Shown: in pieces, positions 14,513-43,866 of the stretch
How positions within the stretch are numbered: the first letter of the stretch is position 1
Layout: every line of letters starts with the position of its first letter
Position numbers and translations under genes: made by a program
The notes under the pieces: generated by a model
What the model was told of the DNA's origin: nothing
The model's database searches: none
The model's input: only the letters and a program-made list of their open reading frames with translations
NCBI GenBank assembly: GCA_002049455.2
Contig: KV918772.1
Span: 248,001-312,000 of the forward strand
DNA: 64,000 bases
Origin: Porphyra umbilicalis
Lineage: Eukaryota; Rhodophyta; Bangiophyceae; Bangiales; Bangiaceae
Direction: 5' to 3'

Positions 14513-14534
14513 GTTGCCGCGGCGGTTCTTGTAT

Positions 14535-18608: not shown

Positions 18609-18622
18609 CTGGGCCCATAACC
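18609..18622 (-). other. copia-1 primer-binding site (initiator tRNA-Met anticodon region)
   Basis: Directly inside the 5' LTR the element reads GGTTATGGGCCCAG. This is the exact complement of the initiator tRNA-Met anticodon stem-loop CTGGGCCCATAACC found in most eukaryotes. Copia-type elements are known to prime from the internal end of a cleaved half-tRNA rather than from the 3' CCA end. Confidence 0.85.
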
Positions 18623-19040: not shown

Positions 19041-19045
19041 CCACC

Positions 19046-20128: not shown

Positions 20129-20152
20129 CCCTGGATTAGGGTTGCTAAACGC
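20129..20152. repeat. hAT-3 left target duplication and terminal repeat
   Basis: CCCTGGAT (20129-20136) is followed by TAGGGTTGCTAAACGC. Inside, seven or so GCGCCC motifs occur within the next 110 bp, the usual density for hAT subterminal binding sites. Confidence 0.75.
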
Positions 20153-20945
20153 GCCCCGAATTTGGAGGCGCGGTGTCATCCAGCCCCAGTACGCGCCCAA
20201 AAGCGCCCTAATCGCACCGAAGAGCGCCCCAAAGCGCCTTGAGCGCCCATATGCATTCAGTAGGAACCATGCACTGAGAAAGGGAAGTACAGAAGTGGGT
20301 GCCCTTGGCTGCCTCCGTTATGTAAGAGAATTGCGCCTGGTGCTATGTTCACCTGTCAGTGCCCGTGAAATCCACGTGGCGCTCCGTGAAGTCCACGATT
20401 CCACAGTGGAGTACACGTGGCATCACTAGAAGCCAAGTCCAATTGCTCTGGTTAAGTTCAATGCCCAACTCGGCTTTTCAGGTGAAAATGCTCACTCAAC
20501 GAAATGCTACAAAGCACACAGCATGCTCGAAAACCCTGGATCTATGGGTGATATTGCGGAAGCTAAAGAAAAAACACCGTAAGCAAACAAGAACGCATGT
20601 GGGAGCGACGGGATGCATCACCCGGGCAGAAACGATAAGCGGCTGGTTGGGTTCCTCCAGTTTGCTCTGACGCCAAGGGAACCCTATCGCAGCCGCGTAC
20701 ACAACGAAACATGCCCAGGCTTCCTGTTAGGTTCGTTCAAGACTGAATATTCCTGCTATGCTATACATATCGTGGTCCAGGCACGACTTGAAGCGTTAGG
20801 TACAGTCGTTCCACAAAAAACTCGGCACTCAGCCGAAATCAATAGTGCCCCCCATATGTTCCTCGTTTCGCGTGAACATGTCTGAGAACCAGTGACGTGT
20901 CAGCGAACATTTCTCAAAGGCGCTTTTCTGCTCAAAGACTTCGAG
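20153..20945. other. Inside hAT-3: subterminal repeats, no gene seen
   Basis: GCGCCC-rich subterminal DNA runs to about 20250. After that the sequence is AT-richer and non-coding, with no recognisable frame. Confidence 0.4.
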
Positions 20946-22585
20946 TGCTCAAACACACGAGGCTGCACATGACAACAATGAGCCCTCCATCGCTCTTTCT
21001 GGCCCCCCACATCGTGGAGCCGGGCCCATCCGCCAATCTGCCTGGTCTCCCACTGGCGGGCGTGCCATGGGTCACACGTCCCGTTTGAATGTTCAGAGCG
21101 CGGAGGCCGGCCCGTCGGCCAATCTTGGCTGACGGCCGAGTGCGAGGTGGACAGAGCCCAGATGATCTCCTCCTTCGCGCTATTTTGGGACGATGGCAAG
21201 TCTATTGCGAAATCATCAGGAATCGCAGAACATTTTGATCCTGCTCTGATCCCTGAACAATGGCCCGACGGTCGAGATCATGGGCCCGTTCTCGGTTGCT
21301 CAAAATGGCATTCGGAAATTTGTGACGAGCCGGGCGCATATGTCGACCGGACGACGGCGTCGCCGATCCGGTCGACGTCGCCACCGCGATCCGCCGCCCT
21401 CCCCCCCTCCCCCCGCTCCTCCCCCTTCTCCGCACCGCCACCACCACGATCCGCTACACCCCCCCCCCCCCCCTGCCCCCCCCCCCCCTCCCCCCCTGCC
21501 CACCGCCGCCATCACGATCCGCGCCCCCCCCCCCACCGCCGCCGTCGAGGACGCCGTCAGCGCCGTGGCTCCCCCCATTCGTCAAGCGCTCGTCACCGCT
21601 GTTGTTGCTGTCGTCTGGCGTCCTCGCTCTTTTGCTCGTTTTTCTTTCGTCCTCTGGGTTGTTCACGTGGCTGTTTTTTTGTCGCCTGAAGACCTAAATC
21701 TCTCTCGCTGTTGTTTCTTTGTCAGCCACCTCGTCTTGGAGATCTTGCTATAGGACTCAAAGCGGAGTCCCCGCAATTGAGTGCACCGCATCTTTGTCGA
21801 CAACGTTTCTCATGGCCCGTTTCAAAATGCACGTTACATACTCGCTGAAAGAGAGAGGGGGGTGCGCCCTCGGACCAGTACGGAGAGGCCACAAACAAAA
21901 TCGCGAGTCCATTTAATCCTGATACAACAACACAGCAAACGAAAGGCAAAAGTGGACACCGACAAGGCAGCCACAGCGGTGATCGGCACAAAAAGGCGAG
22001 GGCGGCAAAGCGGCGCGGGCTGAGGACCTGGCGACTGCGGTGTGGGGGAGGGGGGGGGCAGGGGGGGGGGGGGGTGTAGCGGATCGTGCTGGTGGCGGTG
22101 CGGAGAAGGGGGGGAGCGGGGGGGGGGGGGGGGGCGGCGGATCGCGGTGGCGACGTCGACCGGATCGGCGACGCCGTCGTCCGGTCGACATATGCGCCCG
22201 GCTCGTCACAAATTTCCGAATGCCATTTTGAGCAACCGAGAACGGGCCCACGATCTCGACCGTCGGGCCATTGTTCAGGGATCAGAGCAGGATCAAAATG
22301 TGCTGCGATTCCTGATGATTTCGCAATGGACTTGCCATCGTCCCAAAATAGCGCGCAGGAGGAGATCATCTGGTCTCTGTCCACCTCGCACTCGGCCGTC
22401 AGCCAAGATTAGCCGACGGGCCGGCCTCCGCGCTCTGAACATTCAAACGGGACGTGTGACCCATGGCACGCCCGCCAGTGGGAGACCAGGCAGATTGGCG
22501 GATGGGCCCGGCTCCACGATGTGGGGGGCCAGAAAGAGCGATGGAGGGCTCATTGCTGTCATGTGCTGCCTCGTGTGTCAGAGCA
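20946..22585. mobile_element. Foldback-type element with ~550-bp inverted arms
   Basis: The sequence 20946 to about 21495 recurs as the reverse complement at about 22036-22585 with high identity. The open frames on the two arms translate almost identically (ISS[FC]ALFWDDGKSIAKSS). Their differences are mostly amino-acid changing, so the arms are probably not coding. The inner part of each arm is a poly-C/poly-G tract, and about 540 bp of unique sequence separates the arms. No convincing target duplication was found. It may be a foldback element, a MULE with long terminal repeats, or a segmental inverted duplication. Confidence 0.65.
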
Positions 22586-23868
22586 GCCCGCGTTTGATGA
22601 GGCCATTCCCGAAAAAGGGGAAGGATTCCGACGGCACCATCCAGCGTGAGTCGTGACCTGCCTCCCCGCAGTCCGTGAGCCGGTGACAAGTGGGGTATCT
22701 ATTGAAGGGCCCTTTCTCAATAGAGACGCTCTGGCGCTCTCTCATTAGTCCACCAGATCACAGACAAAAGTGGGCAGTGCCTCCTAGACACTCGCGCCAA
22801 TGAGGGCGCGGAGCCGTGGGAACTATTGAAGCAACAGTTTGCCGGCCTGCGCGATAGTGCCCACCACGTGTGAACGCGGGCGACATTCTGGGACCATGTC
22901 TGCAATGGACCTGCCACGAACGCCGAAGTCGGGCGCGGCGTCGGCTGTCCCAGAAAGTTTGTTTCAGAAATCTCAAGTCCCTCACGAGAGGGTCCCCCGG
23001 GACGGCTGGGCGTGTCCTGGAATCGTGGATTGGTCACGTTTAAGGGATTTTCGAGAGCGCCTGTCCAAAATCGAGAGCGTTGCATCGCAAAAGAGGCACA
23101 TGTGAAATGTCGAGGGCACTGTTGATCCCGCCGGAGTGCTAGGTTTTTTGTGGAACAACAGTACGTTTGAGAGAGGTCACTTCTGTCGGTTTGCAAGTCT
23201 TATAAAGCTTCGATCAACTGTTTGACCATGCATGATCGCTGCCATCTCAACGGTTTCTGGTGCACATGAAAGGACGCGCTACGTGCGTGCATCTGTTTTA
23301 GCAAGGTGTCCTAGCGTTTTTGCATGAATCCTCTCAGCGAAGTCTTTGAGACTCGTGTTGTTCCCCTCGACTTGTGCGTATTTGCTCGCACGTGTGCACG
23401 TTTTGTAAGATCACGTTCACGGCCAATCGGATGGTGTGAATTCACGATTCTTGCCACTGTCAGCCATGGCGTCAACCTCACGCACGGCGTGTTGGGGGCC
23501 CCTGGCGGTGGCCAATGACGGGCCGCGGCGGTGAGGTGGGACCGCGCGCAGCGTCTTATTGGCTGGGTTACGCGCCGCTGGTGGCGGGCCGGGCGGCGCC
23601 ACGTTGCGTTTGTTGTGTGATTTGACGGGCCGACCCGCATGGGGAAAACCCATCCTCGTCTGGCCGCTTGACCTGGCGCCAACGTAGGGGCGCCGGAACG
23701 CCCCGTTAGCCGCTAGGGCGCTGGGCCTTTGCTTTGTTGCTGGCACCCGGGAGGTGTGGACCTGTGCCCCCCTGGTATCAGCCTGTTGTGTGCCTGTAGA
23801 AGGCCCCCTCCCCCCTCTGGGGACGCCCACGAGCGGGGGGGTAGGGCCTGTGCAGACACCGTTTGAGG
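22586..23868. other. Inside hAT-3: no gene recognised
   Basis: This is mixed-composition DNA without a recognisable coding frame. A short palindrome occurs near 22700-22725. From 23500 to 23870 it becomes GC-rich and leads into a TATA motif. Confidence 0.35.
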
Positions 23869-23869
23869 G

Positions 23870-23876
23870 TATAAAA
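23870..23876 (+). promoter_or_regulatory. Orphan TATA box
   Basis: TATAAAA is embedded in GC-rich DNA and followed by a GC-rich stretch compatible with a start site about 30 bp on. No recognisable frame follows, so it may be the promoter of a lost gene or of an old element. Confidence 0.35.
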
Positions 23877-23880
23877 GCAG

Positions 23881-24982
23881 TAGCCGGCACCGGCTCGCGG
23901 GCGGTGACGCACCCTCCAGTACGACGCAGCGCTTCTTAAGCACCATCCCTAGTCGAGGTGTTGCTTGTGGGAGTCCTGCGACACCGCTTTTTCTCTCGAG
24001 TTTTCGTGCCTTTCGTGTTCCCCGATTTTATGCACAGATGGCGATGATTCACTTTACGTGGAAAGAGTGTGTTCCACGGCCGATGGAGTGCGCCAGGTCC
24101 GACAATAAGAGCATTGTTCACAATGAGATGCTATCCCCATATTCCAGCCACGTTGCAGAACGTGTCCCATTAAGCGACTGAATTCCGACGTAACACCACT
24201 TTTCAGACGAAGAAGCCCTTTTTTTGTTCGGGCCATGGAAAGCGAACTACCTACTTGATTCTGGCTTCCGCTGACCGAGAATAGCTGTGCGGCTATCGCT
24301 TTTCTACTCCGAGTCGGAATAGCTTTCAGGATAGCCGAGGCTATCTCACGAGGGCCTCTGATTGGCCCATGTGATGAATCAACGACCCGTTTCACAGCAG
24401 ATAGTAGCACGTGGCTGCAACGTGTGCGCCACGTCTGCAACATTGACTGCCATCTTCTTCTGGGCAGAGGTAGTGGGAACGTCCGTATGAGCTGTCGTGC
24501 ATGGCAATGCTCCTACAGTAACGTCCTTCTAGACGTGGTCGTCATCGAGCGCTGCACATTTTGACCTGTTTCTTTGTTCGTCTGCCGACGAGCGTTCTCT
24601 GCGCCCTCGTTATGGTTGGTACGGCTGCTCACCTCAGTTGTCATCTGCCGCTGCAGTGAATCAAGTACGGGCCGAAATTATCGTCTTGATCGGGCCCAGA
24701 CAAGGCCTGGTGTACGGAAACCTGCAGGTACTTAGGCTCATGACAGCACAGCAGCCAACAGCTGACGTACATGTGGGTGTCTAAGGACGCGGACTTGGTT
24801 CTAGAATGGAATAGCCGATAGCGATAGCGTGAGTTGTTGGCAATGCTCTAAACTACCCTATTTGCATTCCCGAGCGGTTGCGGATCGATCTCTCTCTCTT
24901 CCGATACAGTACTGTGCAGCTCCGCTTTCTTTCGTACTGACAGTCTTTTGTGGCCCCGACGCTCAGAGCGCCATCTGTGGGC
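23881..24982. other. Inside hAT-3: no gene recognised
   Basis: No family-like frame is seen. Short repeats of ATAGCCGAGGCTAT/AGCCGATAG type occur at 24270-24345 and near 24810. Confidence 0.35.
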
Positions 24983-24990
24983 GTGCCACG

Positions 24991-25890
24991 TAGGGTTGTG
25001 CAACACGCCCCTTTTTGAAGGGCGTGCGGTCGTGACACGGTAAAACACGCCCTAGACACGCCCTTAAACCATAAACACGCCCAACATGCCCTAAAGTAAA
25101 ACCCATAAAAACTCGAAGTAGCACCTACCAATGCTCTGCCTAAACCGCCCCATACGATACACAAGCTTGGCGCTGGCCAGATACCACGTCGTGTCGAACA
25201 CATCTTTGTGCAGCACGTTGATCCGACGAGGACCGCGGCCGCTACCTGCCGCGCTCGACGCCCCACCCACCGCAGCAGCGACACCCTTCGTGCCGACGCT
25301 CCGCGCCACGCAAGCCTCGCAAATGCTCACAAGATCAGACTCTCGGGGGCGAGGCGGCTGGCTGGCGCCATTGACTGACGACGCCTCGTCGTTCGCTGTC
25401 GCCTCTCCCCGCTCGCGGTATGCCTGGGACACCTCGTCCAACTCTTGCTGTATGCTTCTGGCGTCGGATGCCAGGCCTGCGACCGCACCCGCGTCAGCGT
25501 CGTTCTCGTTGTCGGCAGCGTGGGGGGAGCTCCACTCGTACTCGTAGTCATCATCGGGGTCCATCATTCGCCGGCATCTTGACCAAAAGCGCCCATGTGG
25601 GATCCCGGTGACGCCGTCTGGCGTGGCGCCGCCTCTTTGGCCAGCGCAGCTCGCATTTGCAGCACCACCTTGGTCATGTCGGTAAATCGGTGGGGGTCGA
25701 GTCGGTTGCAAGCCTTACTCGACCACCTCACTGCAACCAGCGGAATATGTGCGCATGCACCTGTGATTAACCACGCCTAAAACACGCCTCATGTTTGGGC
25801 AGGCGTGCTGGCGTGACACGCCCTAAACACGCGATAAAACACGCTCTGCGCGTGTCCGTGAACACGCCTTGGGCGTGTTGCACAACTCTA
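24991..25890. mobile_element. Short hAT element (hAT-2), 900 bp
   Basis: The terminal repeats are TAGGGTTGTGCAACACGCCC at the left and, read in reverse complement, TAGAGTTGTGCAACACGCCC at the right (one mismatch in 20). The 8-bp duplication GTGCCACG is perfect at 24983-24990 and 25891-25898. Both subterminal regions (25000-25095 and 25770-25875) are filled with AACACGCCC-type motifs. The element is too short for a full hAT transposase. It carries one minus-strand frame at 25091-25711. It lies inside hAT-3. Confidence 0.88.
25091..25711 (-). CDS. Unrecognised 206-codon frame inside hAT-2
   Basis: This single frame occupies most of the interior of hAT-2. It begins with a Pro/Arg-rich stretch, then an acidic segment (MDPDDDYEYEWSSPH), a possible amphipathic helix (SIQQELDEVSQAYRERGEA) and a short hydrophobic C-terminus near the subterminal repeats. 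No hAT dimerisation motif (hATC) or BED zinc finger is visible. It could be the remnant of a transposase N-terminus, a captured host fragment or a chance frame. Confidence 0.3.
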   Translation of the reverse strand: MQPTRPPPIYRHDQGGAANASCAGQRGGATPDGVTGIPHGRFWSRCRRMMDPDDDYEYEWSSPHAADNENDADAGAVAGLASDARSIQQELDEVSQAYRERGEATANDEASSVNGASQPPRPRESDLVSICEACVARSVGTKGVAAAVGGASSAAGSGRGPRRINVLHKDVFDTTWYLASAKLVYRMGRFRQSIGRCYFEFLWVLL

Positions 25891-25898
25891 GTGCCACG

Positions 25899-26807
25899 CA
25901 TACGAGCGCAGTCGTCACAGGTTGGTGACAAGATTCCTTTTGACGTCTGATGGCCGATTTTCAGGGCTCCCTTCGGCTGGGACAGCAGCAGTTTATAGCT
26001 GCTGTGTCACCAGCCTGCTCATTGTGGGAGGTTGCCAATTTTGACTGGTACTTGACAGTGTCACGTCTATGCTTAGCTGAGCAGAAATTACAGTTTGCGC
26101 TCCAAAAACGCCCCTTCCCGTATGGGGCGCGTGGCTCTTACGGTGGTTTTCTGTAGTTTGGCCACGATGCGGGAGGCATGTTTTGCCCAAACCACGACAT
26201 GGGACACCCCCTCCCCGCCCCAAGGCATCAAAAACGTCGATGTTGAGTGCGTGTGGGAAGCCAGCACCTGTGTCATGCATGGGCCTGGCCATACCCCTGG
26301 TATTCGGACGAGATGCATGTTGCCCAGTACCGCAGTATCGGCTCTCTGGTGGCCCCCCAAGCGGGCACTTGGACCCACTGAGCTCGGAGGCGGCACGTGG
26401 GAGCGAAACAACGCGCACCGGGCAGTGGTTTCTAATGAGAACCCCTAACTGAGGCTCTCAGGAGGGGTACGGTACTTAGTGCGGCCGCCCAGATTTGCCA
26501 AGAGGCGCCTACAGAGGGCAAAACGTCACCAGGCCGATCGGCGTCGTCGCCACACCGCGGGGGTGGTGATTCACGCTCTTTCCTTCTAATCGTCGGATCA
26601 CGGAGAGGACTCCTGCCAATTTGAGTTGGCCCGCGAGAAGCCAAATCGGATCAGCAGCTGACCTCCAGAGGGCCAAATCGGGTTACCAGCTGACCTCGAG
26701 AGGGTCGAATGTGAACTTCGTCTGACCGTGTCGTTTAAGAGTGGGAGCACCTCTCAAATCCACTTGCCCGATCCATCTCGCGCAGTGGAGCAGCGGGCAG
26801 TGCCAAT
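25899..26807. other. Inside hAT-3: non-coding, with one dispersed repeat
   Basis: No gene is recognised. The stretch 26137-26191 is an inverted, diverged copy of 43273-43328, which lies just inside the right end of hAT-3, so it may be a relic of a related hAT. Confidence 0.45.
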
Positions 26808-27692
26808 TTGATTGGTATCCCCCACGATTCCCACCACAATGCGTGCCGTTCTCCCAGCAGACAGTTCTCTGAGCCGTCCTCCTTCAGTGCGCCAAGAAGT
26901 GTTAATCACTGGGGAAACAGCATCCCTCAGCACCCCAGCGCGCCCGCTCACTGGGCGTGTGGCCGTTTTGCCCGGTTTACCCGCACCAACGCGCCCGCTC
27001 AGTGCGGCCTGGCGTGTTCCTGTCCAGGGGCGTTGTGGGCGGCAGTTCCCCCTGCCATGTGGTCCACCGTGGTGGCCACCTTCTTCGCGGGGGTTTCCTC
27101 GACTCACCTCCATTATGATCGCCCGCGTCGCGCCCACCGGACCGGCGGGCGTCGTGCCGGCCTTGCTGGCGCTCTTCTTCTCAATCTCTCCCTTGCACCA
27201 GTGTCCGTCTTTCCCGCCTCCGCCAACACCCCATCGCCTCCGTGGTCGTGCTTGCTGCGGCCGCGCTTTGTCCGCGGGCACCCCCCATGCACGCAACCAC
27301 CACCCGGCGTCTCCGCCGTTGTCGTTGTTCGCGTGGCCGCTCCTATTCCGCCTCTTTTCCTCCTTTCCACCTCATGCAGACGAAGCCGCTTCGCCACGCC
27401 GCGTCGACGCCGTGGCCACGGTTGCTGTGGTCGTCCTTCATCAGTGTGCTTGCCTCTCTCGACTCAATCCGCGTGGGTCCCTTTCTCGACGCCCTTTGTC
27501 CGTGTGCCTCCCTCGGCCAACCCCCACGTGCCTCCCTCCCTCAACTCATTCTGCCAGATTGCCTCCCTCCGTTCCCCTTCGTCTACCTTTGTCGAAGCCG
27601 CGTCGCTGTTGCCTTGTCGTCGGAGCCCGGCTCGCGCGTCCACTGAGGCCGCTTCACCGCTGCCTGTCGAAGCGGAAATTTCGGCGACGACG

Positions 27693-28961
27693 ATGGACGG
27701 GGCGACCAGCGGGTGTTTCACGTCATCGGCGTCAAGCACCTCGAGCACGTCTTCGAGATTAAGCACCTCGTTCACGTCCTCGGTGTCGACCAACCCGTCG
27801 TCCTCCACAGGCGTGTCATCCGCAGCGTGTTCAACGACTGTCTCAACTACGTCAAGATCGTCGAGCAGCAGTACGGATGGCGGAACGTCAGTGCCGTTAG
27901 TCAGCAACTTGCACGCTGTAATGTTTTCCGAGAAGACGCGTCAGCACCTGCTCGGGCTTCTTGACGAAGGGTACCCCACTGCCGACGTAGCCGATATTAT
28001 TTGCTGCTCGCGCCGGTCCATGCGCCGATGGATGGGCTTCTTCGAGGAGAACGGGACTGTCTGTCAGGACCCGCGTCCCCGCAACCTACACGCCGACGTC
28101 GCGATCCACAATTTCCACCTGACGTGCGCTGTCCTGACGCTCGTTGAGAAGGAGCCGGCCGCATGTTTAAGCGATCACGTCGATCTTCTGGTCGCCCTCA
28201 GCCTGGAATTCCCCGCCAGCGACAACCACTATGTGAGCGCGGCGACGGTGTACCGTGTGTTGCGCTACCACCAGAACACACGCAAGAAGATTGAGCGGCT
28301 GTACGCTGAGAGCTCCTTCATCGCCCAATGCGCATTCGCTGTTATGATTGACGAGATCCCGCTCCGATGCCTTCTGTCATGTGGCGAGACGCACACGGTG
28401 GGGGGCGCCATGCTATGCCGCTACGGGCGGTCGCGCCGGAACGTGCCATGCGTGCTTCGGGACCGGGACACACGTCCGGTCAAGCGAACGAGCACAATGA
28501 TGGAAGCTTCTCTGTCTCACGGCGTCCTATGGTCGCAGACGGTCATTGTGGGCAACGCCCAGACGGCGGACGACTTGCGTTTGTTCCTTCAGTGTCTTCG
28601 TACACGCATGAACGCCTACGTTACCGGCCTCGCCTGGGAGCTGCAGCCCGACGCGTTTGTCGTAATCTACGACAATGCCAAAATTCACGACCATTAAGGC
28701 GATGAGTACATGCAGGCAAAAGGAATTCACTAAGTCCGCTGACCTCCCTACTCCTCGAACCTACAGCCGATCAAGGGCGTGTTTGCCGAATTGAAGAAGC
28801 ATGTGCAGTCGCTCGTGTATGAGGACAGCAGGTATATGACTAAGCCGTTTCATCTTATGGCGGCGGCCGTTGGCATGATCACCACAGCGCAGGTGGCTGG
28901 GCAATATTCTCTTGTCTCGAACAAATTCAGCCGGCTCCGTACTGCCGCGGCTGCTGCGTGA
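27693..28961 (+). pseudogene. Tc1/mariner-like transposase, broken
   Basis: After a Ser/Thr-rich N-terminus, a helix-turn-helix follows (LLDEGYPTADVADIICCSRRSMRRW). The DDE core has its first acid in VMIDEIPL and its second in YDNAKIHDH. The region of the third acid reads PPYSSNLQPIKGVFAELKK, where the family has PPYSPDLNPIE, so the catalytic Glu is replaced by Lys. The frame is stopped at 28695-28697 (TAA) and by two more stops just before the PPYSS segment. The copy is therefore dead. The same frame is open upstream from 26808, but that part is Pro/Ser/Arg-rich and probably not coding. The ATG at 27693 is the best start. Terminal repeats were not found. Confidence 0.8.
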
Positions 28962-29465
28962 CTTTTTCTTTAGTTCGCGGTGTGTGTTCGTAGTGTGCAT
29001 GCGAGGCGTCGGGTTGGGTTGTCAACGCTTGCAGAGTGTTTGTTTTCTTTAACAGACAATGGTCCCAGTTGCGCTGCCGGCCGCCATCGCACGCACGCCC
29101 GCTGTCGAGGAGCACGGTCAGGTGTGCGGTGTGCACCGGGACTGGGGGGTGCATGTAATGTGAGCAACCTTCGTTGCACAAAACTGATACGATGCCGGCG
29201 ATGCCCCCCCTCGTCCCGTCGTCAGTCACCTCCTCTGCGGGCGTCTACCTCTCACGCTCATGCTTCTTGGCGGAATCGCTATCCCTTGAAGTCCCTTTGC
29301 CGACCAGCAGGGGGCAGGCGGGCTTGCAGCCGGCACCACGTTGCTCTTTGGCGCATTGGCCGTCTGACCGACGCCATCGTGCCCGAGTTGTGTACGAGGT
29401 TTCTGCAGGGCGAGCGTTGGGAAGAGGTTTTCATGCCACGCGCAACCGCGGCCACGTACACTCAT
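28962..29465. other. Inside hAT-3: between the Tc1 pseudogene and pogo-2
   Basis: One plus frame near 29340-29460 looks protein-like (RIGRLTDAIVPELC, then GERWEEVFMP) but matches no family I know. No continuation of the MLH1-like gene could be recognised here, although pogo-2 separates this stretch from it. Confidence 0.35.
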
Positions 29466-29467
29466 TA

Positions 29468-31629
29468 TTCAGTTATATCCGTCCCATTTACATCCCCAGT
29501 GGATATAACCGGGACCACGGGGGCACCACAGAGCCCGAGAGATCGAGGAATGTGAAATTAAAACGCACTTGCTACCCGGTTTTCGTAGTTGATTTAACAC
29601 AAAACGATTCATTTGAACTTCATGGATCAGTATATGACCAGTGCCGTTTGCGATCGGAGCACCGCTGACGTCCAAGCTGATCCAGCCGACTGAGGCGTAA
29701 TTCGTCTGCACCGACCACACCTATGCTCCTCTCGCTACCCACCGTACCGCACCACTCGTACACACGGCGATCCTCATACCTTCATGACACTCTCCAATGC
29801 TACCGATGCCGCCGCTGCCGCGGCTGAGGCGGTCTTGGCGGACCATAGGCAGGCATAGGCTGCGCAACACGCCGATAGCGTGAGGGCGGCCGCGCGCGCC
29901 TCGGCCGTGACGGCCAATGCTGTCTTGTCATCCCCGTCTGCGGCGCGCGCGCCGGCCCGGCGCATCGAAGGCGCTCGCCAGCGCCGCACGCCGATGACGT
30001 TGGACACGAAACTGCGTGTTATTGGCTGGCGTCCGGCGGGCCGGATCATCGACTACATCAGCCGGCAGCTGGATACCCAGTACGACCCCAGCGGGCTCTA
30101 CAAGATCATCAAGCAAAAGAACAGCCTCCTTTTATGGACCGCGGATTGCGCGACTAGCGGCCGAGTGGCATCTCAAGCGGGGCGGTGTCCCCAGGTTGAC
30201 ATGGCCATCTTAGAGTGGCTTCTGGATGTGCGCGCGAGGGGCCGTAAGCGAGTGCCTTTGTCCCTTTCCATTCTTCGGCAGAAGGCTTTGCAGGTTGCGG
30301 AGCACCTTGGCATCACTGACTTTGTGGCATCCAACGGCTTCATGCAACGTTAGGCGTCCCTTCATGGCCTTGTGAACGTTGCTCTACATGGCAGCGGCGC
30401 TTCAGCCAACGAGGAGGAGGCGGCTGAGCGCATGGCAGCCATCCGCCAGAAGCTTGAGGGTGTTGATGTCGAACGGATCTACAACATCGACAAGACCGGT
30501 TTGCTCTACCGGGGGCTGCCGTCGCGTTCATCCGTGCCCTCAGAGGACCGCCGCACTGCACGTGGCTGGAGGGCTATGAAGAGAAAGGACCGTGTCACCT
30601 TGAATCTCTGCTGCAACGAGACGGGTACCCACAAGGTGCCGGTCACAATGATTGGCAAGGTAGCTCAGCCAATGTGCTTCCAAGGCGAGGGCAATGCGAG
30701 CCCGCTGCCGTACTTCTCGCAGAAGTCGGCTTGGACTGACGCTTCTGTCTTGAAGCGCTGGTTCGAAGAGGTGTTCGTGCCGGCGATTCAAGCGCGCACC
30801 GCGCATCATGTCTTCTGGATTATGGACGACATTGGCTGCAATAGCTCCCTCTCGCACCCGCAGGTCACTATCATCGAGCTGCCCCCGAACACGACCGCTG
30901 TGTACCAGCCGCTGGATGCCGGCATCATTGTGCTCCTGCAGAACCGGTACAAGAAGCGGCTCCTTTACCGTGTTGTCTGCAACTTGGACTCCCTTCCGTA
31001 CAATGAAGCCACCGACTCTCGAGTTGCACGCGGTGGGGGCCTCGACGAGGGAAGCAAAGCTCACCTGCGAAATGCGGCCAAGTTCATTGTCGTGGAGTGG
31101 GATGAGATTCTTGAGGATCAGATCGTGCGCTGCTGGTTGAAAACGGATAGCCTGCCCACCGAAGCAGTTGCTCGTCTGAGGCTCCAGCTGGACATCATCC
31201 AAGTTGTGGCAGAGCCGGCCCACATGGATGTGTCCCACTTGGTGGCCATGATGGCCAATACGTCCCTGGAGCATGAGTTTGCCGGCCTCAGTGTCCAGGA
31301 ACAATTCCTCGAAAGGCGGCGCTGGCTGACGGCAGAGACTGATGTTTATGCCATTGACCAGATTGTTCATATGGTCTTGACTGGGGGGGATGATGAGGAG
31401 TGATAGCGTAGCGGCGGGGTGGGAGGCATGTGAGTGTGATCACGTTAAGTGCCAAGTCAACCAAACAATGGAATTTTTCTCGCCGAGATCCGTGTCAATC
31501 CTGCCAGTCGTACTCCTTTCTCCATGTTAGGGTCCTGGATTCGTACGATTGCTGCGGATCCGCAAGTCGGCAGATGCCTGCACAAGTCGCTCGTGACAGT
31601 GTAAACAAATGGCAGTGGATATAACTGAA
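29468..31629 (+). mobile_element. pogo-type transposon 2 (pogo-2)
   Basis: The ends are TTCAGTTATATCC (29468) and its reverse complement GGATATAACTGAA ending at 31629, flanked by TA (29466-29467 and 31630-31631). The inverted match is longer than the core 13 bp but interrupted. The left end also contains an internal inverted copy (GTGGATATAAC near 29500), which makes a small palindrome. The element is 2162 bp and encodes one DDE_1 transposase with nonsense changes. Its right end abuts the MLH1-like fragment. Confidence 0.8.
29784..31403 (+). pseudogene. pogo/Tigger-like transposase with nonsense codons
   Basis: The frame runs 540 codons without a frameshift but contains TAG at 29856-29858 and at 30351-30353. 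The second TAG stands where the intact relative at 4702-6612 has Trp (GFVDRW against GFMQR-stop), compatible with TGG to TAG. The N-terminal Psq-type HTH and the second helix domain (VASNGFMQR) are present. The DDE_1 core shows its first acid in YNIDKTGLLY, its second in WIMDDIGCN (where the family usually has DN..H) and its third in PLDAGII. The protein is probably inactive because of the stops and the altered second motif. Confidence 0.85.
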
Positions 31630-31631
31630 TA

Positions 31632-32590
31632 ATGCCTGTACCGCCAGGGGAAACCACCGTCGCCAAAGCCCCCGCCACCGACGCCGCCGCCGTTCTCTCA
31701 CCGTCCCCTCCCGTCTGCAAGTGCTGGCGCCTTCCCACCACAGCCACCACCTTTGGCACCCCCCTAAGGGAGGCGCGAAAGAAGGCATCGAGCGCCCCAG
31801 CGGTGTCGGTCGCATCCGTCCGCACCAGCCGGTTGAGGGCAACGCAGGTGGGCGCCGCCGCCGCCGCCGTGGCGCCCTCCCCGACGCGCTTCCACTTGGC
31901 GGCGCGATTTGCCGACTCGCCGATACCCCCCTCTCACTCTTCGTCGCCATCGTCTCCGGCGGCTCCCCGGCGCCCCTTAGTGTCCCCTGTGACCAGTGGC
32001 AGCGCGATGCCCTCCTCCCCCGACGGGGACGCCAGTGCCGTCGCCACAAATATGCGCGACCCGGCAGCGGCTTTGAGCACATCCACCACCGCCGCCGCGG
32101 CGGCAAGCGCAACTTCGGCTTCCCCCAAAAAGCGAACATCTTTTGTCAGATGCACGTTGACGTCGACGACGGCGGGCGGCATGGTCAGGGACACGAACAC
32201 CCACGGGCGGGCGCCGGTCGGCAGCAGCCCCGTATAGGCCGCGTCGACGGCACGCCGGAGCGGCCCGCACTCGACAAGGCGGCCATTGATAAACGCGATA
32301 AAGACGGCTTTGCGGGCGCGTTAGCCGGCTTTGGCCGCGAACCCGTCCCCGGTGACCGCCCCTGACCAAAAGACCCACGAATGAAGCTCCTGCTCGACGC
32401 CCACCTCAAACACCGCTAGGACATTGTCGCGCAGCGTCGCCCCCACCACCGTGCGCACGCCGAGGATCCCGCCCCCGCCCGCCCCCGCGCTGACCTCCTT
32501 GCGCACCGCAATCACGACGCCCGCGTAGCGCAACGCGAAGCGGCCGACCACCTCCACGCACGCCCGGTACTCTTTGAAACCGGTTACTGT
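31632..32590 (-). pseudogene. MLH1: MLH1-like mismatch-repair gene fragment
   Basis: One minus-strand frame keeps the MutL/MLH1 order without frameshift. VEVVGRFALRYAG corresponds to the end of the ATPase region. KAVFIAFINGRLVE, AAYTGLLPTGARPWVFVSL and VDVNVHLTKDVRFLGE match the transducer domain (family: FIN.RLVE and VDVNVHPTK). After a variable linker, LVRTDATDTAGALDAF matches the conserved MLH1 linker motif LVRTD....LDAF. The frame contains a TAA at about 32318-32320 and a TGA at 31934-31936, and the family Pro in VHPTK is Leu. The N-terminal ATPase motifs and the C-terminal PMS-binding domain were not found. The fragment ends exactly where pogo-2 is inserted. MLH1 pairs with PMS proteins in mismatch repair and meiotic crossing-over; this copy cannot make a full protein. 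Confidence 0.85.
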
Positions 32591-34650
32591 CCGCCGTCGC
32601 AGGGATGCGGCTGCCGGCGCTCCGTCACGGCAGGGTCATTCAATTGTTGGACCAGGGTGGAAGTGGCGAGCACGGTGGTGCCACCACTGCCGCTGCGGCG
32701 GGAGTCGGGTCAGAAAGTCGAGTCGGCGCGGGGAGCAGATACCGTCGCAGCCAAACCTGTAGGTCATACCGAGAGAAAAGGGGGCAGGTTCTTCGCTGGT
32801 TGTTGGCGGTGGAAGCATTTCTCCGTCAAGACGAGCCCACGCTTTCTTCTCGGAGACAAAGATCTTGTTCATCGATCCGCGTTGCAGGACGCGGACATCG
32901 TCTTCAGTGATCGTCGCCTGTCAGCAAGTGGCCTGTCCCACGTCCGCATCCGCGACTGACCATTAAATTCACGTCCGTTCGCCGAAGAGAAACAGATGAA
33001 CTTCCCGCGTTTCCGATGGTCAACAACGACGTGAACTCATTTCCAGAACCAGCAGTTCGGTGAAACAGTGGTGGGGTTACTTCCAAATCCTTGCATATGA
33101 GGCAAGGTATTGGCACTACAGTGTGGTTTTGGCAGCCAATGTTGTTCCCATGGGAAAACCTATCGGATGAATCCGGCGGACCCCAGAGAACTCCTGCGAT
33201 ATCTATCTGATGGACGTTCACCGGCTCCCAGTTCTGGCTGCCGTAGCCCGATTCGCTGCTTGCCTGATTTACTCGGGAGGCTCGGCACGACGACTGATTC
33301 ACGACCGCCGTCGTCGCGCCGTCCTCGTCCGTGGTCATGCTAGTGCCCTCGGTTCTTTGCGAGTCAGTCTGCCTCGACCGGTCTCGTGGCGCTGTTTTCG
33401 TCCTTGGACCGTCTTGGCGCACGCTCTCCAGCTCTGTCGGTCCCCGGACGCCGGCATGCTGTGTGCTTGCTGCTTCCTGGCTTGCAAGCACTCGTGCGCC
33501 TTGCACTGTTGCCAGTTGTCTTCCACTTTGCACGCCAGTCCCTCACGTTTTCGCCGAGGCGCCTGCACTGAGCTTCTCCACGTTTTGCTCTGCGCAGTAT
33601 AGTGTTTATCAATGACAATCATTATGGATGATCGAGGTGGCTGCGGTTCTCGTGTTTCTGTAAATGCTTTCCAGCGGCATCGGCGGCGACGTGCATACGT
33701 GCGTCTGTTCTCTGATGCTCATGCCGTACAATCGTCTTCGCCTAGTGTCTACCGTCGTATTATTTCTCTCTGTTCTATATATCGAATGGTTTCATTACTC
33801 TCGTACCCGACCTTATACTGCCGTCGCTCCCGTCGTGCCACAGACAGGGAAGCGGGGCGGGACCGTGTGCTTCAAGAATATGAGAGCAACGTCAGGGATA
33901 AGCTTGTAGTCGCCCACCGCAGGCGTCCATGGTGTCGGCTCTGTCTTGCCCTTCATCGGCAGCAGCCAGGACCTCCTTTGCCACGGTGTCGACCGACGTC
34001 GGCGGCGAAACCGTGGTAGCGATCGGCTCGCCGGAAGCTCTGGCACTGCTCCCAGTGTGGCTGTGGTGGCCGAGGACGAGGCGGTGCTCGGAGCTGAACA
34101 AACGGCCGACGCGCTCATCTACGGCTTCCGTACCTTTGGCGGACCCAGCTGCCCATCGCGTGGTGTTGGCGACGAGGCCAATGGCGGATACACTCGCCGG
34201 CGGGGCCATCTCGGCTGCGGTTCCACCTCAGCTGGACACCGCGCTGGTGGCGTCGGCGCAGACTCGGACGAGGTGGTTGCCGTAGAGGCGGGCGCGTATG
34301 CGACGGACAAGTTTATTGAGGAGCACGGTGGGGATAGTCTGCGGACGTCGCCGGCAAAGGCCAGCACGGTGGCGGTCATGGCCGATAACGCCGCGGCGAA
34401 GGCCCAGGGCGTGGCGGTTGTAGTCGATGAGAAACACAATACCGGGAAAGACTGACCGCATAGAACGTGTTCTGTGCCAGAGCAATGTGTCCGTGTCTGT
34501 GTGCCACATGTTGGGGAAGGCGTCCGGAACACCAAGGTGCTTTTGAGACACCTCCCTTCTTGCCTCCTTTCCAAGTATTTTCCAGGCCACAGCTAGCATT
34601 TAGAAGATGCCTTTAAGAAATGCGCAAAGCTTACATGTCCCTTTCCCCGC
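32591..34650. other. Inside hAT-3: weak frames only
   Basis: Several 80-200-codon frames exist on both strands without recognisable domains. One plus frame at 33946-34455 is acidic to Ala-rich (VVAVEAGAYATDKFIEEHGG) and could be a small gene, but the opposite strand is equally open there. The MLH1 N-terminus was sought here without success. Confidence 0.3.
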
Positions 34651-34651
34651 C

Positions 34652-34975
34652 TCACTTCGCGTTCCCTTTAGCGCTGCTTCTTGTTCGTGCTGCTGTCAAG
34701 CTCTCCCGCTGCATCAGCACCGGCTCCATGTCTGCCACCACGGCTGCCAGCGACAGTTGAGTTGGCCGTTTGGGCGGGAGCCATGCCACTGCAGCAGTCG
34801 TTGTGGCGGCAGTCAGGATCACGGAGGTGACCATGACACCCAATATAAACTTGGCACATTTGAATGCGCGCCAATATGGCTTGCTGCCCGGCGCGCGCCA
34901 AATCGCCACGCTCGGATGGCAGAGGGGGAGGACGCGGGCCATCGTCTGACGGGCTGCTGTCGCCGATAGAGGCAC
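34652..34975 (-). CDS. Small frame with one predicted membrane segment
   Basis: This 107-codon minus frame contains FILGVMVTSVILTAATTTAA, a credible transmembrane helix preceded by a basic, Trp-containing stretch. No family is recognised. It could be a fragment of a membrane protein or a chance frame in GC-rich DNA. Confidence 0.2.
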   Translation of the reverse strand: MPLSATAARQTMARVLPLCHPSVAIWRAPGSKPYWRAFKCAKFILGVMVTSVILTAATTTAAVAWLPPKRPTQLSLAAVVADMEPVLMQRESLTAARTRSSAKGNAK

Positions 34976-37942: not shown

Positions 37943-39358
37943 TCAGAACACAGGCGCCCGCCGGGGGCGGCTGCCGATGTCGTTGGGTGATTTCGAGGCT
38001 GCAGCTCCACCCATCACCACCGCTGCCCGTCTGTCTGCGCCACAGATGCCATCGGTGCCCACATCCTGCCCACTGGCAACAAAACCGGCGTCGCCTCGAT
38101 TGGCAGCACCTACAGCAGGCCGAGCATGTGCTGCCGTAATTTCCCGGAGCGCAACAGCGAGGGCGGCATGTGGGATTCGCCGCGGCCGCTGCCGACCGGC
38201 AAGCCGCTTGCTACGAAGGAGGCCTCGCCGGTCTGGACGTGTCGCGATGGAGACCCAAGCTGCCTCGGCTGCGTCCGACGCGACGCCCCAGGCGTTGCAA
38301 AAGAGAGTCTCCGTCTCGTTACGACGAAGACCCGTGATCACGAAATTGCGGCAGTCGGTGCCCTGCTCGGAATGCGCGTCGAACGCATGCTGCACGGCCG
38401 CGGCCCGCTACCACAACAACCGGGAATGAGCTGCGTCAGCCGTCATCTGCTTCATGAGGAGGTAATCGGTAGCCCTGGCGGAGTGCGCCGGACAGAAAGC
38501 TGCATAGTTCTCGTCGTGACGGAAGCACCGCCCGTCATTCTCCAGGTGGGCCAGAGACGGGGGGGGTGCGGCATAGAGGCAGCAAGAGGGGCAGACACGC
38601 GGGCACTCTGGCACGTAGCAGCCGACAGAGGAATCCTTGTCGCCACATTCGGAGCACGTCAGCTGAAGTCTGCGGTGGTAGGCGGAGATGACATTGCAGA
38701 GCTGGTCCGTGTCCGGGTTGTGATACGCCTCGGGTACCCACATTGCGCAAACTTTGTGCACGTATACACTCTTGCGCATATTTCCTTTGATGAAAGGGCC
38801 CAGCTTTGGTGACGGCAGCGTGCCGCCAGTCCTGTTGACAAGTGGGAAAAAAGTCGCACGAGGGTTCGGGCTCATCCCCGACCAGCTCTTCCGCCACTTG
38901 CTCCGCCTGCCGCTGGTTCTTGGGCTCCCGCGTTGGTGGCCAGCTCTTAGCCAAACTTCCCGTGCTCCGCCGCGTGCTACATGGCAAGCGCGCTGAAGAA
39001 ACCGCGCAGCCCGCCGAGAAGCTGCCCGCTCTCGCCAGACGCTTGTTCTTGCTCTTGTTTGACACGCGGCGCGTTGAGGGCCACGCGTCTCCTGCGGAGA
39101 TGTCACGCAGTTTTTCAGTCTGCTTCCCCTTGTTCTCGCGAAGCACGGACGGGGCTGCACTTGACCCTTCATTCTTGTGCTTGTGGGCCGCCACCAGCCC
39201 CTCACACCACTTTCGCTTGGCCCGTGCGTCCCCCCTTGTAGCGGCAGAAGACTGAAACTCAGGCATACCACGGACAACGCGAAGAGGGCTGGGCAAGCAG
39301 GGTGCTCGCAGTCGCTGCAGGAGATCTGACCAACCCCACCACCAAGTAGCGACGCCAA
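37943..39358 (-). pseudogene. Extended PHD-finger (ePHD) protein gene, broken
   Basis: The minus-strand sequence shows VYVHKVCAMWVPEAY, then LTCSECGDKDSSVGC, a Cys-rich turn (CPRVCPSCC) and finally FCPAH. This is the C...W / C..C..K.A..GC / FC..H layout of extended PHD zinc fingers in chromatin regulators (trithorax and AF10 type). Upstream, another minus frame gives a basic linker (KRKWCEGLVAAHKHKNEG), and a further cysteine pair (CSDCEHPAC) lies at about 39320. After a TAG near 38408 the same frame continues to 37943 with FVITGLRRNETETLFCNAW. Introns may explain the frame change near 38.9 kb, but the in-frame TAG suggests decay. The precise chromatin protein cannot be named. Confidence 0.55.
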
Positions 39359-40700
39359 TGGAGGTGGCCGGTCGAGCGCCGCCCCAGCTTAACGTACAAT
39401 GGCGCGGCTATAGACTCCCTGGGCGAGGCGGAGCGTGGCCGCCGGCGATCTTGGGGGAGGGCGTGACCGCCGGCGGCAGCGACGGTGACGACAACTGTCG
39501 TAGCAGCAGTGCTCGCGCTTGGTCGGGGGGGGTGCGAAGGGAGCACTTGATGCCGCAGGCAGCAGTGAATCCGTCAGCAAAGGCAGCCGTGCAGCGCCAG
39601 CGCCAAGCGGGGGAGAGTGAGGCCGCAGGCAGCGGCGCTCGTGACGGCAACGGCTACGGGGGCAAAAAAGCGACGTCATCCAAGCAGCGCCTAAGTAGGT
39701 TGCAGGGCACTTCTCAACGTCATTTCCACCCGATGACACCGACGGCCACGGGGCCTGGCTGATTGTCTGACTGACTAAAGGTCGCCTTAGTCTGGCCGCA
39801 GTGAGGCTGCACAAGGGGCTGGCGCAGTGCGATGTGTCGCGCTCCCGGTGCCTGGCGTCTCCGTGTCTCCAACACGACTGCTGGGGCGCCCACGCCTATG
39901 GAAATGTGGGGCTCGGGGCCCCTCTGTGGGAAAATATGGAATGAGAAGGTGACAAGTGTGCCCGGTGAGAGGAATTCTTGTGCATCCAGCCGCACAGGGG
40001 ATCCTGCTAGTGACGCTTGGTAGAGGCAACAGACCCTGGATGGAATGTCCGTATGTTGACCGCTCCATGGATTTCTTTTGCGACTGGATGTGGATCTTCA
40101 AAACCCGCAAGCAGACGGCTCGGTGGTGCGCGGCAGGGCTGAAAACAACGGTGTCGAACGAGTTCACCATAGCTGCCACCGTGAGCCATAGTGGTCTGGA
40201 CGGTGGTAACTCTTCTGGGTCGTGCACTCGCTGGATCGGTTGCTGCGCAATCCCTGTTCGTGCGGCTGAAACAACGTCGTGGTCGCTTCTCTGCTGGAGG
40301 CTCAAAGACCAGGGTAGTTAGTTCCCTTTGGGCAGGCAGTTGATCTTCAGTGCGGCCAAAGTTTCATTCCGGCCATGCCCGTGCCTTTTGGGAGCGGCCC
40401 AGGGAGTCATTTTGATGCGATTCCGCGGTGTTTCTGTGCCGTCTTCTTTACGATTTCAGAGGGCACGGCAGCGCCGCGCCACCGCAGGTCATGGCCGCCC
40501 TCGCGGCGGAGTCTCTATTCGACTTCGTCCGAGTGCGGGGCACCATGGAGCGCCGAACCAGGAGCACAAAGCAACGCAGATTGCGCACACCGAGGCCGTG
40601 GACGTACGCCTTCTCGATGCACTGAATTAAAACAACGAAACGGTTCCAGTTGGATACTACGCCCGCCTACATGCCTACATGGTCCGGCACCCAAGAAAAC
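39359..40700. other. Inside hAT-3: no gene recognised
   Basis: GC-rich frames on both strands (39389-39814) have no domain; they could hold a 5' exon of the PHD gene. From 39815 to 40700 nothing is seen. Confidence 0.3.
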
Positions 40701-41660
40701 TCACAGATTTGCGTCGGTTGCAGCGCCGCCCGCTTGCAACCGCAAAGCAGCAGCCGTGGCAGAGGCCATTGAAGCTGAAGCAACTGGCGGGCCGCCACCA
40801 GCCACGTGACAGACAGAATCAAGCAACTCGGCGGCGGGACTGGACGCGACATGGGACGCCGCGGGATCCGCAGAAGCACGGGGCACCAAAGAGGTGCGGC
40901 GCTCTGGTACGGCGACAGACATTCGAGGCACGGGAGCGCGACGAGGGACACGCGCCACAGCAATTTCAGGACGAGGTGCCAAAGCAACTGCAGCGCGGGG
41001 CCCGAGACATGTAACGGGAGCGGGCGCGGCAGCCAGCGCGGCGCCGCCCGCGGCAGCGGTAGCAGCGGCGGCCACGGAATCGACCGTGGTGGCGGCAGCT
41101 GCCGCAAAAGCAGGCACTGCGCCGGCAGCGGCAGTGCGCGGAGCTTCACGCGTGGCGGCGGCGGAAACAGTGTGCGCGGAACCGGGCGTTGTAGTGGCAG
41201 CGGATGTGGGCGTGGCAGAGGCAGCAATCATACCGCTGGCAATGAAAGCTCGTGCAGCGGCTCCGTGCGTTACAGAAAAAGAGGCGCTTCGTGCGGCGGC
41301 GGCGTTGGGCGCTGCTGCGGCGGCGACAATCACCCCCGACAGTGCCGCCGCTTCCACCACCGCGCTGGCAACTACGCACTGCACGGCATAAGCCATGCTC
41401 GGCATCGTTGCTGAGCGTAGAGCGGCGGAAATTGCAGAGCAAAGCGACTTCGAGACTTGCGCAGAGCTGAGGGTTCCGGATGTTAACATGAACTCCCGCA
41501 CTTGCGAGGCAACCGCGCCCTTGACGACGACGCCCGCCATTTCCGCGTCCACGTCCTCGAGAGGGCACTGGTACAGCTCCGCAACGACGTCATGCGCAAT
41601 GCCGACGGGAGGTTGGCCCCCGAACGTAGAAGACACGAAGACGGGCAGCTTGTGCTCGAA
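40701..41660 (-). CDS. Ala/Val-rich frame downstream of the zinc-knuckle frame
   Basis: A minus-strand frame of about 310 codons starts with a mixed, protein-like segment (FEHKLPVFVSSTFGGQPPVG, then AHDVVAELYQCPLEDVDAEM) and turns into Ala/Val/Thr repeats. It lies immediately downstream of the zinc-knuckle frame and may be a further exon of that gene. The second half is low complexity. No function is assigned. Confidence 0.25.
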   Translation of the reverse strand, partial: FEHKLPVFVSSTFGGQPPVGIAHDVVAELYQCPLEDVDAEMAGVVVKGAVASQVREFMLTSGTLSSAQVSKSLCSAISAALRSATMPSMAYAVQCVVASAVVEAAALSGVIVAAAAAPNAAAARSASFSVTHGAAARAFIASGMIAASATPTSAATTTPGSAHTVSAAATREAPRTAAAGAVPAFAAAAATTVDSVAAAATAAAGGAALAAAPAPVTCLGPRAAVALAPRPEIAVARVPRRAPVPRMSVAVPERRTSLVPRASADPAASHVASSPAAELLDSVCHVAGGGPPVASASMASATAAALRLQAGGAATDANL

Positions 41661-41734
41661 GCGGGCGCGTGTCGCTTCCGGTCACCGGTTGTCTTGACCA
41701 ACTGGCATGTGGGGGCCTTCGAGGTCGCCCACAT

Positions 41735-42760
41735 CTATGGGAGCCGCGGATGTGGCACCGTTGCTGCCCCTGCGGGCCTTTTCTTGACGCCAGTGACCTG
41801 TCTCAACGGCAACGAAGCCGAGGACGGCAGCTTGCTCTTGGTGATGGCGGCGGCGTAGCGGTCCGTCCTGCTTCGCCGCCTGGTATGGTTTACGCGCTCT
41901 GCCTTGACAGCGTGCTCTTCCTTATGTGCCTGCCCGCTGGCTCCGCCGCACCGAGCCTTCTTGCCACTGCTTGCGGCATGGCGGGAGCCATGGGCGCCGT
42001 CGTTGCCGCCGCCTCGTCGCCGTCCTCTCCCGCTGCCATCACCAACACCTCGTTTGCGCCCCCTCCCTCTACCGCCTCTGTCACCCTCAGCCGCGGCGGC
42101 TGCGTTCTTGTCGGACGTGCTTTGCCCGTCCACGTCGGAGGAAGGTTGCGTCGTCTCTTTCAGACTGCTCTCGGCGGCCGAAGCGGCCAGCCGGTTGACG
42201 GCGACCGCACCGAGGTGCACATATGAGTAGAGCGTCTTGAACGTCGCCTTGTTCTCCTCTTGCAGCGGCGCTGCGTTGCTGCCGAGCCCTTCCATCATCC
42301 GCACGGTCTCATTGATGTCAAGACGCTCGGCATTGGTGTTGACGTGGAGCTGCCACGTGGCCACTCGACGCGTGTGCGCTTCTTCCGCGGCCGTGGTGGA
42401 GACGCTCACCGAGTTGTCCACCATACTCTGGATGGAGAGGTCCGTGATGAGGGTGCAGACAAAATCTTCCTTGGTGAGCGGCTGCTTATTGGGCTTCCTC
42501 ACGAGACGCCCCTTATTGTTCAACTTCCACCGTCCGGGGTGTGGGGCCTGCGTCCCGTACAGGTGGCCTGTCACCCCGCACGTGTTGCACTCCTCCTTGT
42601 GCTCGCACAGCGTGCTGACGCACTGGCAGAGCACTCTAAAAGGGTGGCCCTCTGGTAGCGACCGGCCGCACTGCGTCTGCCTCAGAGGGCACGACCGCGC
42701 ATAGTGAGTCGACCCGTCAGGGGGGCTGACGTAATGGCACAAGCTTCACTTCATGGTGCA
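41735..42760 (-). CDS. Zinc-knuckle-like protein, unrecognised family
   Basis: The N-terminal half has an array of Cys and His residues: LCHYVSPPDGSTHYARSCP, then LCQCVSTLCEHKEECNTCG and GHLYGTQAPH, which reads as two or more zinc knuckles. A helical region follows (YVHLGAVAVNRLAASAAESS), then a long basic, Gly/Arg-rich tail with nuclear-localisation character (RGRKRGVGDGSGRGRRRGGG). The frame is uninterrupted for about 335 codons. It may be an element-encoded nucleic-acid-binding protein or a host gene. Its position near the right end of hAT-3 makes either possible. Confidence 0.4.
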
Positions 42761-42821
42761 CGCTGCCGCGGCGCCTTGTGCTCTGACTGTTGCAGCCCGT
42801 CCCCGTCGCCGCGGTGTCCGC

Positions 42822-42915
42822 CGTAGTGATCGTCGCCGTGGCCGCCGCGGTGATCGTCGCCGTGGCCGCCGCGGTGATCGTCACCGTGGCCGCCGCGGTG
42901 ATCCTCACCGTGCCC
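42822..42915. repeat. 24-bp minisatellite, about four units
   Basis: The unit GTGATCGTCGCCGTGGCC followed by GCCGCG is repeated about four times with small changes. The length is a multiple of three, so repeats keep any frame open. Confidence 0.75.
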
Positions 42916-43385
42916 GCCGTCCCCCTGTCACGCTCCGCGCTGTGTTGAAGATCCCCGTACCCCGACCGGGAACCCCAGCATCCCGGTCGAGAAACTGGCG
43001 GCGGGCGTGAGCAATGCGCACTGGCTCTCACGCGAGTCGGCGCTGGAAGAGTCGCCTCTGAGGTATGCCGCCTCGTGTCGCGGCCAGCGTGGAACAGGAC
43101 CGGGGCTGAGTTGGCTGCGACGGAAGCAGGCTTGAAGGCGACGTCTCGAATCGGGAAGTGCTCATCAGAAGTCGACTGCTGATGTCATGTTTCCGCGGAC
43201 CTCAATTACTATTGGCTGCGGTGCCAATCGTGATCAACTCGGACCACGATCGTGACTAAGTGGTCCACAATAGTTTGGGCAGACCATGCCTCCGGCAGCG
43301 TTTCCAAACTACAGAAAACCACCATACGCACCAAAATCGCACGGTTTGGCGCGCCCTCAAAGCGCCCTTACGCGCGCCCCCAGAT
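42916..43385. other. Right subterminal region of hAT-3
   Basis: No gene is recognised. The stretch 43273-43328 has an inverted diverged copy at 26137-26191. GCGCCC motifs cluster at 43345-43380. Confidence 0.45.
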
Positions 43386-43409
43386 GCGTTTAGCAACCCT
43401 ACCCTGGAT
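43386..43409. repeat. hAT-3 right terminal repeat and target duplication
   Basis: GCGTTTAGCAACCCTA is followed by CCCTGGAT (43402-43409). GCGCCC/GCGCGCCC motifs lie just inside (43345-43380). Confidence 0.75.
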
Positions 43410-43864
43410 AAGAACGAGACAGATTTGCACGGCCAGGAAGGGCGATTCTGCCGTCTTCTGCACGAAGAAAGAGGGCTACTTCGGTTCCTGTCAGGCGATC
43501 ACAAGGGTGGACAGCACTGTAGAAAGACTGCACAGTCATTGCTCATTTGTATACAGGGGTGGCGCACTTCGTAGCCCTAGTGCTAAATTACCGAAGATCA
43601 GGCAACCTTGTCTGAATTTTTCACCATCAGAGGGCGGCAGTACGCTCGATCGAGGACTTGAGTTTGAATTTGTAGGAAAACGCACCCATGGACAAGGAAA
43701 TGCTTCTGGGCCGGTTCTGAAGGGGTCCTGGTAGCGGTACATCGCCAATCTCAAGCCTACTAGACCTCAGAGATCACTCGATCGCGGATCATCTGAGAAT
43801 GATCGCGTCGACTGCGCTGCAAGTGCGGTGAGTCTCATTCGACGACGATTCAGTTGCGCTCAGT
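43410..43864. other. Short intergenic stretch
   Basis: No gene is recognised between the right end of hAT-3 and MITE C. Confidence 0.4.
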
Positions 43865-43866
43865 TA

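Follow-up and report, generated by a model that had tools for sequence, protein, structure and literature searches.

A unit of 23,265 bp (about 23.3 kb) with hAT-type ends lies in the stretch of Porphyra umbilicalis DNA analyzed here (contig KV918772.1, positions 248,001 to 312,000, forward strand). This 64-kb stretch is hereafter called the window, and all coordinates refer to it. On the left, the 8-bp target-site duplication (TSD) CCCTGGAT (20129 to 20136) is followed by a terminal inverted repeat (TIR) of 16 bp (20137 to 20152, plus strand). On the right, the second TIR (43386 to 43401, minus strand) is followed by an exact copy of CCCTGGAT (43402 to 43409). Sequence comparison of the two TIRs, whose terminal sequence is TAGGGTTGCTAAACGC, showed agreement at 16 of 16 positions. 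A previous interpretation made from the letters alone (the sequence-only reading) had reported these perfect ends and the identical duplication 23.3 kb apart, and its coordinates proved exact. The unit encloses other transposons as well as an MLH1-like fragment and further gene-like DNA.

At this base composition, chance alone would give 0.95 perfect 16-bp inverted pairs in a 64-kb window, and about 2e-5 if identical flanking 8-mers are also demanded, in line with the earlier opinion that a chance match was unlikely. Many of the 102 maximal exact inverted pairs of at least 16 bp in the window come from copia, miniature inverted-repeat transposable element (MITE), and foldback repeats; the outer pair alone has identical 8-mers directly outside. 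A looser scan (8-bp TSD and at most two mismatches in 12) yielded six pairs, compared with 2, 0, 3, 2, and 1 in five mononucleotide shuffles, and by itself is little above chance. Its only pairs with zero mismatches were the outer pair and one within a foldback. A motif scan revealed GCGCCC next to both TIRs, with five copies on one strand at the left end (20151 to 20248, plus strand) and three at the right (43351 to 43379, plus strand). The window has three sites with at least three same-strand copies within 55 nt: the two ends of the unit and a GC-rich repeat near 44.9 kb. The motif is not enriched overall (100 occurrences in the window versus a shuffle mean of 95.2). Because the TIRs, the identical 8-bp flanks (unique to 1 of the 102 pairs), and the GCGCCC clusters coincide at both ends, there is strong support for assigning the two ends to a single hAT-type insertion, a case that the sequence-only reading had considered.

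Two further observations were set aside. When the flanks were joined into an empty site, a frame spanning CCCTGGAT stayed open for 250 codons, which is no evidence in DNA so GC rich. The identical TIR was matched twice in IMG/VR (L001 and L002). By eye, neither match had GCGCCC clusters in the approximately 120 following bases, and, judging from the approximate size of the collection, both were attributed to chance.

The plan of the ends is that of a hAT element. Subterminal repeated motifs are usual in this superfamily, and here they are represented by the GCGCCC clusters. The TAGGGTTG type of end resembles that of Ac. The perfect 16-bp TIR is inside the range of 5 to 27 bp given for hAT elements (PMC12506042), and subterminal repeats are named for Ds (PMC3260210). 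The 8-bp TSD on both sides agrees with hAT as well, although Zisupton (KDZ) elements likewise make 8-bp TSDs, so that this length is not exclusive to hAT (PMC12730594). The Pfam scan covered 145 of 178 open reading frames (ORFs) of at least 75 amino acids inside the unit and 128 of 196 in its flanks. No hAT transposase, represented by its BED finger and dimerization region, was matched at an E value of 0.01 in the interior ORFs scanned. Pfam contains a KDZ model, and no KDZ transposase was among the 11 families matched in the same ORFs. With neither transposase among the ORFs covered by the scan, movement of the element would depend on an enzyme supplied in trans. We filed the unit under "hAT-type ends" and not as an autonomous hAT; a nonautonomous element would be without transposase.

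Three elements with ends of their own are nested in the unit. A Tc1/mariner-type unit (20801 to 23163) has imperfect inverted ends, 80% alike over 51 bp by inverted-end comparison, and TA on both sides. Inside it, repeat comparison placed a foldback (20946 to 22585) with arms of about 540 bp (20946 to 21488 and 22046 to 22585) that are 97% complementary. The TSD/TIR scan delimited hAT-2, an element of 900 bp (24991 to 25890; 24983 to 25898 with its TSD GTGCCACG), whose TIRs differ at 1 of 12 positions. It includes a coding-like stretch on the minus strand at about 25320 to 25620 according to the codon scan. It is built much like the outer unit: its TIRs are of the TAGGGTTG type, its TSD is 8 bp long, and most copies of ACGCCC, a motif related to GCGCCC, lie on one strand (6 versus 2). 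The third is a broken pogo/Tc5-type element on the plus strand (29459 to 31638; 29457 to 31640 with the TA on both sides). It carries HTH_Tnp_Tc5 and DDE_1 (E = 4.4e-29) in the same frame with a stop between them, and its inverted ends share an 18-bp exact core. The TA pairs of this element and of the Tc1/mariner-type unit came to light on direct inspection of the sequence and were then verified. The automatic TA scan listed neither, as each end pair has two mismatches in its first eight bases, and the interior inverted-pair scan assigned the pogo element a GTAC repeat three bases out.

A broken Tc1-type transposase lies at 26739 to 28973 (plus strand, limits approximate, by Pfam and codon scan), for which the end scan found no recognizable TIRs. 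A search of phages with its ORF at 26739 to 28697 gave no match. The foldback, hAT-2, and pogo element had all been named in the sequence-only reading and stood up to analysis. The Tc1 it also named is backed by HTH_23 (E = 4.8e-6, Pfam), its DDE motifs being judged by eye only. Insertion of other transposons into the unit is evident, either before or after the unit itself landed; for relative dating by mismatches, the TIRs and TSDs of the unit and the nested elements offer 24 paired sites, too few to give adequate power. Outside the unit, a second pogo/Tc5 element (4139 to 6863) is bounded by inverted repeats that match perfectly over 24 bp when the flanking TA is included, and its open frame of 673 amino acids contains HTH_Tnp_Tc5 and DDE_1.

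Directly adjoining the nested pogo element is an MLH1-like fragment in one frame (31641 to 32580, minus strand; Pfam, PDB, and codon scan). It corresponds to the end of the N-terminal domain plus the linker and is interrupted by in-frame stops at 32321 to 32323 and 31934 to 31936. The fragment matched DNA_mis_repair in Pfam (E = 3.1e-17) and the MLH1 structure 4p7a (E = 4.2e-13), which confirms the earlier assignment. The likeness of the linker was judged by eye. The ORFs scanned, inside the unit and in its flanks, yielded no match to any further MLH1 domain.

Other gene-like segments gave less clear signals. An ORF at 38411 to 39388 (minus strand), previously called an extended-PHD (ePHD) gene, does show a PHD-like signal, with a match to JADE1 (E = 2.4e-5). 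This signal is weak: two PHD-like Pfam models fell below their cut-offs (best E = 1.2e-4), and the ePHD domain is below the codon-score threshold. The ORF at 41738 to 42745 (minus strand), formerly described as a zinc-knuckle gene, looks coding by codon score, but no significant CCHC match supports that name (zf-CCHC, E = 0.14). Its best Pfam match, TrAA12 (E = 9.3e-4), was below the cut-off. Its best PDB match, ribosomal protein S10 (E = 4.8e-7, residues 127 to 260), was ascribed to a low-complexity Gly/Arg-rich part. A segment at about 34.1 to 34.5 kb (34080 to 34500, plus strand) passed the codon-score threshold with no Pfam match. Transposon and gene ORFs from the window served to train the score, among them those of the Tc1 and pogo elements, whose own codon scores are therefore not independent; 0.1% of mononucleotide-shuffled windows exceeded the threshold. 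Weak interior Pfam matches to NHase_beta_N (E = 2.4e-4), TrAA12, YidD, DUF6988, and DUF4703 were taken as chance. Relatives of the ORFs at 41738 to 42745, 38411 to 39388, 25094 to 25714, and 30354 to 31400 were not found in viral_contigs by tblastn (17, 1, 5, and 9 pattern matches, respectively). ARAGORN detected no tRNA, and no Rfam family reached its gathering score.

The rest of the window is also rich in mobile DNA. Two copia long terminal repeat (LTR) retrotransposons, at 14074 to 19041 and 56167 to 61511, are about 85% alike and lie in opposite orientation; the former has LTRs that are 99.8% identical and one open frame of 1,223 amino acids. A MITE-like family is represented at 1795 to 2197, 2274 to 2507, 3506 to 3950, 7592 to 7749, and 43858 to 44269, with ends TTGCTGATCCCC and, in several copies, flanking TA. 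The ORF at 9402 to 10952 (minus strand) matched NDC10_II (E = 2.2e-8) and is possibly Crypton-like. A Ulp1-type C48 peptidase (E = 7.2e-21) is encoded at 48414 to 48974 (plus strand) among long ORFs without assignment, and an ORF with an ERCC4 domain (54840 to 55532, minus strand; E = 3e-9) adjoins the second copia element.

Without the three bounded elements, 17,811 of the 23,265 bp (about 17.8 kb) remain, and removal of the Tc1 remnant as well leaves 15,576 bp (about 15.6 kb). Exact inverted pairs of at least 11 bp were sought in the interior at spacings of 100 bp to 9 kb, with low-complexity words and foldback-arm starts excluded, and TSD-like repeats of at least 4 bp accompanied only those of the pogo element and the Tc1/mariner-type unit. 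Direct repeats of at least 60 bp were not found in the interior, nor was any LTR element found inside the unit. These scans thus reveal no nested element that could have carried in the 11.8 kb between 31641 and 43401. Since no bounded nested element accounts for the residual 15.6 to 17.8 kb, its capture or carriage is favored.

We consider it reasonably probable that the unit is a large nonautonomous hAT, known here from one copy, that contains captured or carried DNA beneath nested insertions and was mobilized in trans. A single hAT-type element would have inserted at CCCTGGAT, duplicating it, and would have been, or have become, large and nonautonomous. Its interior would have taken in non-transposase DNA, namely, the MLH1 fragment, the ePHD-like ORF, and other coding-like segments. 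A hAT transposase encoded elsewhere would have mobilized it in trans, and other transposons would have inserted into it; we infer that most of the 15.6 to 17.8 kb was already inside at landing. A stricter proposal is that the hAT measured about 16 to 18 kb before nesting and moved whole with captured host DNA, including the mismatch-repair gene fragment. Leaving aside Ds elements with LTR insertions, such an element would exceed the cargo-bearing hATs of stated length, the longest of which is 10.3 kb. We hold this proposal to be possible, with the balance slightly against it. Several points weigh against the explanation as a whole. The unit is known from one copy, and 6 of 10 long maize Ds1 elements hold nested LTR insertions, so that their size derives partly from nesting (PMC3260210). 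The interior pair scan was insensitive, missing hAT-2's own 8-bp TSD, and similar elements may have escaped it; the 11.8 kb could have arrived with a Helitron, or with an element too decayed for its ends to be recognized. A decayed hAT transposase could likewise have escaped a Pfam scan limited to ORFs of at least 75 amino acids.

The sequence-only reading had allowed either movement as a giant hAT or growth by later insertion and capture. The three inner elements with their own ends fit growth by insertion; they could also predate the movement of the unit. In its extreme form, a short MITE-like hAT at CCCTGGAT would have grown in place by successive insertions, one of them a gene-fragment carrier that is no longer recognizable, such as a Helitron or a decayed element. 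The three bounded elements and the Tc1 remnant agree with this, as do ten maize Ds1 elements of 0.8 to 24 kb, of which six contain inserted LTR retrotransposons (PMC3260210). However, 17.8 kb is left after removal, and within the limits of the scans no inverted-end/TSD pair or long direct repeat explains it, so that capture or carriage of this residual remains favored and we consider growth in place alone rather unlikely. More improbable still is a macrotransposon, in which two neighboring hAT copies would have contributed one outer end each and relocated together with the intervening DNA. An Ac/Ds macrotransposon has been reported to move as much as 100 kb (PMC3260210), and repeat comparison identified an inverted 54-nt copy (26139 to 26192, minus strand), 87% identical, of the right subterminal region of the unit (43273 to 43326). 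This copy, however, is wrongly oriented for a simple left copy ending there. The interior scan recognized no inner TIRs of the unit's family: apart from the two hAT-2 ends (four and five mismatches), four TIR-like sites had five to seven mismatches in 16, and inner ends may have decayed. Finally, ends from separate elements joined by rearrangement or misassembly, or matching by chance, seem very improbable; a window of this size should indeed hold about one perfect 16-bp inverted pair by chance, but the identical 8-bp flanks and the subterminal motif clusters at both ends speak against coincidence.

The sequence-only reading had regarded host-gene cargo on this scale as new, but such cargo in hATs has precedents: gene-carrying hATs measure 7.3 to 10.3 kb in a pandoravirus and about 9.5 kb in a fungus, and Ds elements reach 24 kb (PMC6418002, PMC6710886, PMC3260210). 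The S0, S1, and S2 hATs of Pandoravirus celtis are likewise bounded by inverted repeats and carry several ORFs of unknown function, differing between elements (PMC6418002). Unlike these viral elements with intact transposase, the unit is 23.3 kb long, yielded no transposase domain, and holds a broken host-gene fragment and nested transposons. The histone H3 hAT of Pseudocercospora fijiensis has an 8-bp TSD, a 20-bp TIR, and a captured host-gene fragment, as here, and differs in its size; H3-like sequence occurs in 471 repeats, and a hAT domain in 277 of these (PMC6710886). Maize Ds1, Ds2, and Ds-l elements are nonautonomous hATs with filler DNA, occasional gene fragments (in two Ds2 and nine Ds-l4), and nested insertions (PMC3260210), and the unit departs from the long Ds1 in its lack of any LTR element found. 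It also resembles the reported maize Pack-hATs, which are nonautonomous and hold gene fragments, Pack examples of other superfamilies measuring a few hundred base pairs (PMC8903248). In the unit, the MLH1 fragment is a candidate for such a captured piece of a host gene.

Rust-fungus hAT7 families carry a TET/JBP gene and differ by 7-bp TSDs and the presence of a transposase (PMC12730594). Giant KDZ and EnSpm elements of Ectocarpus contain nested transposable elements and accessory genes, some families being without any transposase gene (PMC12477816); in contrast, the end plan of the unit resembles that of hAT-2, and no KDZ domain was found. ToxTA, formerly ToxhAT, is a 14-kb nonautonomous cargo element with a nested Tc1; it makes a TA duplication and has been refiled as Tc1/mariner-like (PMC12506042), whereas the unit has an 8-bp TSD. 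Within the portions of open-licence literature available, no cargo-carrying hAT of a cellular eukaryote above about 10 kb was found, Ds elements apart, and the whole word "hAT" did not occur in the available text of "Giant Transposons in Eukaryotes" (PMC6431247). Among the cargo-bearing hATs, a kind already known, the unit ranks as a large one.

Cargo on a scale above 15 kb has been described for KDZ and EnSpm elements (PMC12477816) and for Starships (PMC12506042). If the interior is not common to other copies, the unit would be an ordinary case of nesting. If copies elsewhere share it, ends of the hAT type would prove able to transport over 15 kb of DNA of host origin in a cellular eukaryote, and limits on the cargo of cut-and-paste transposons would become directly testable.

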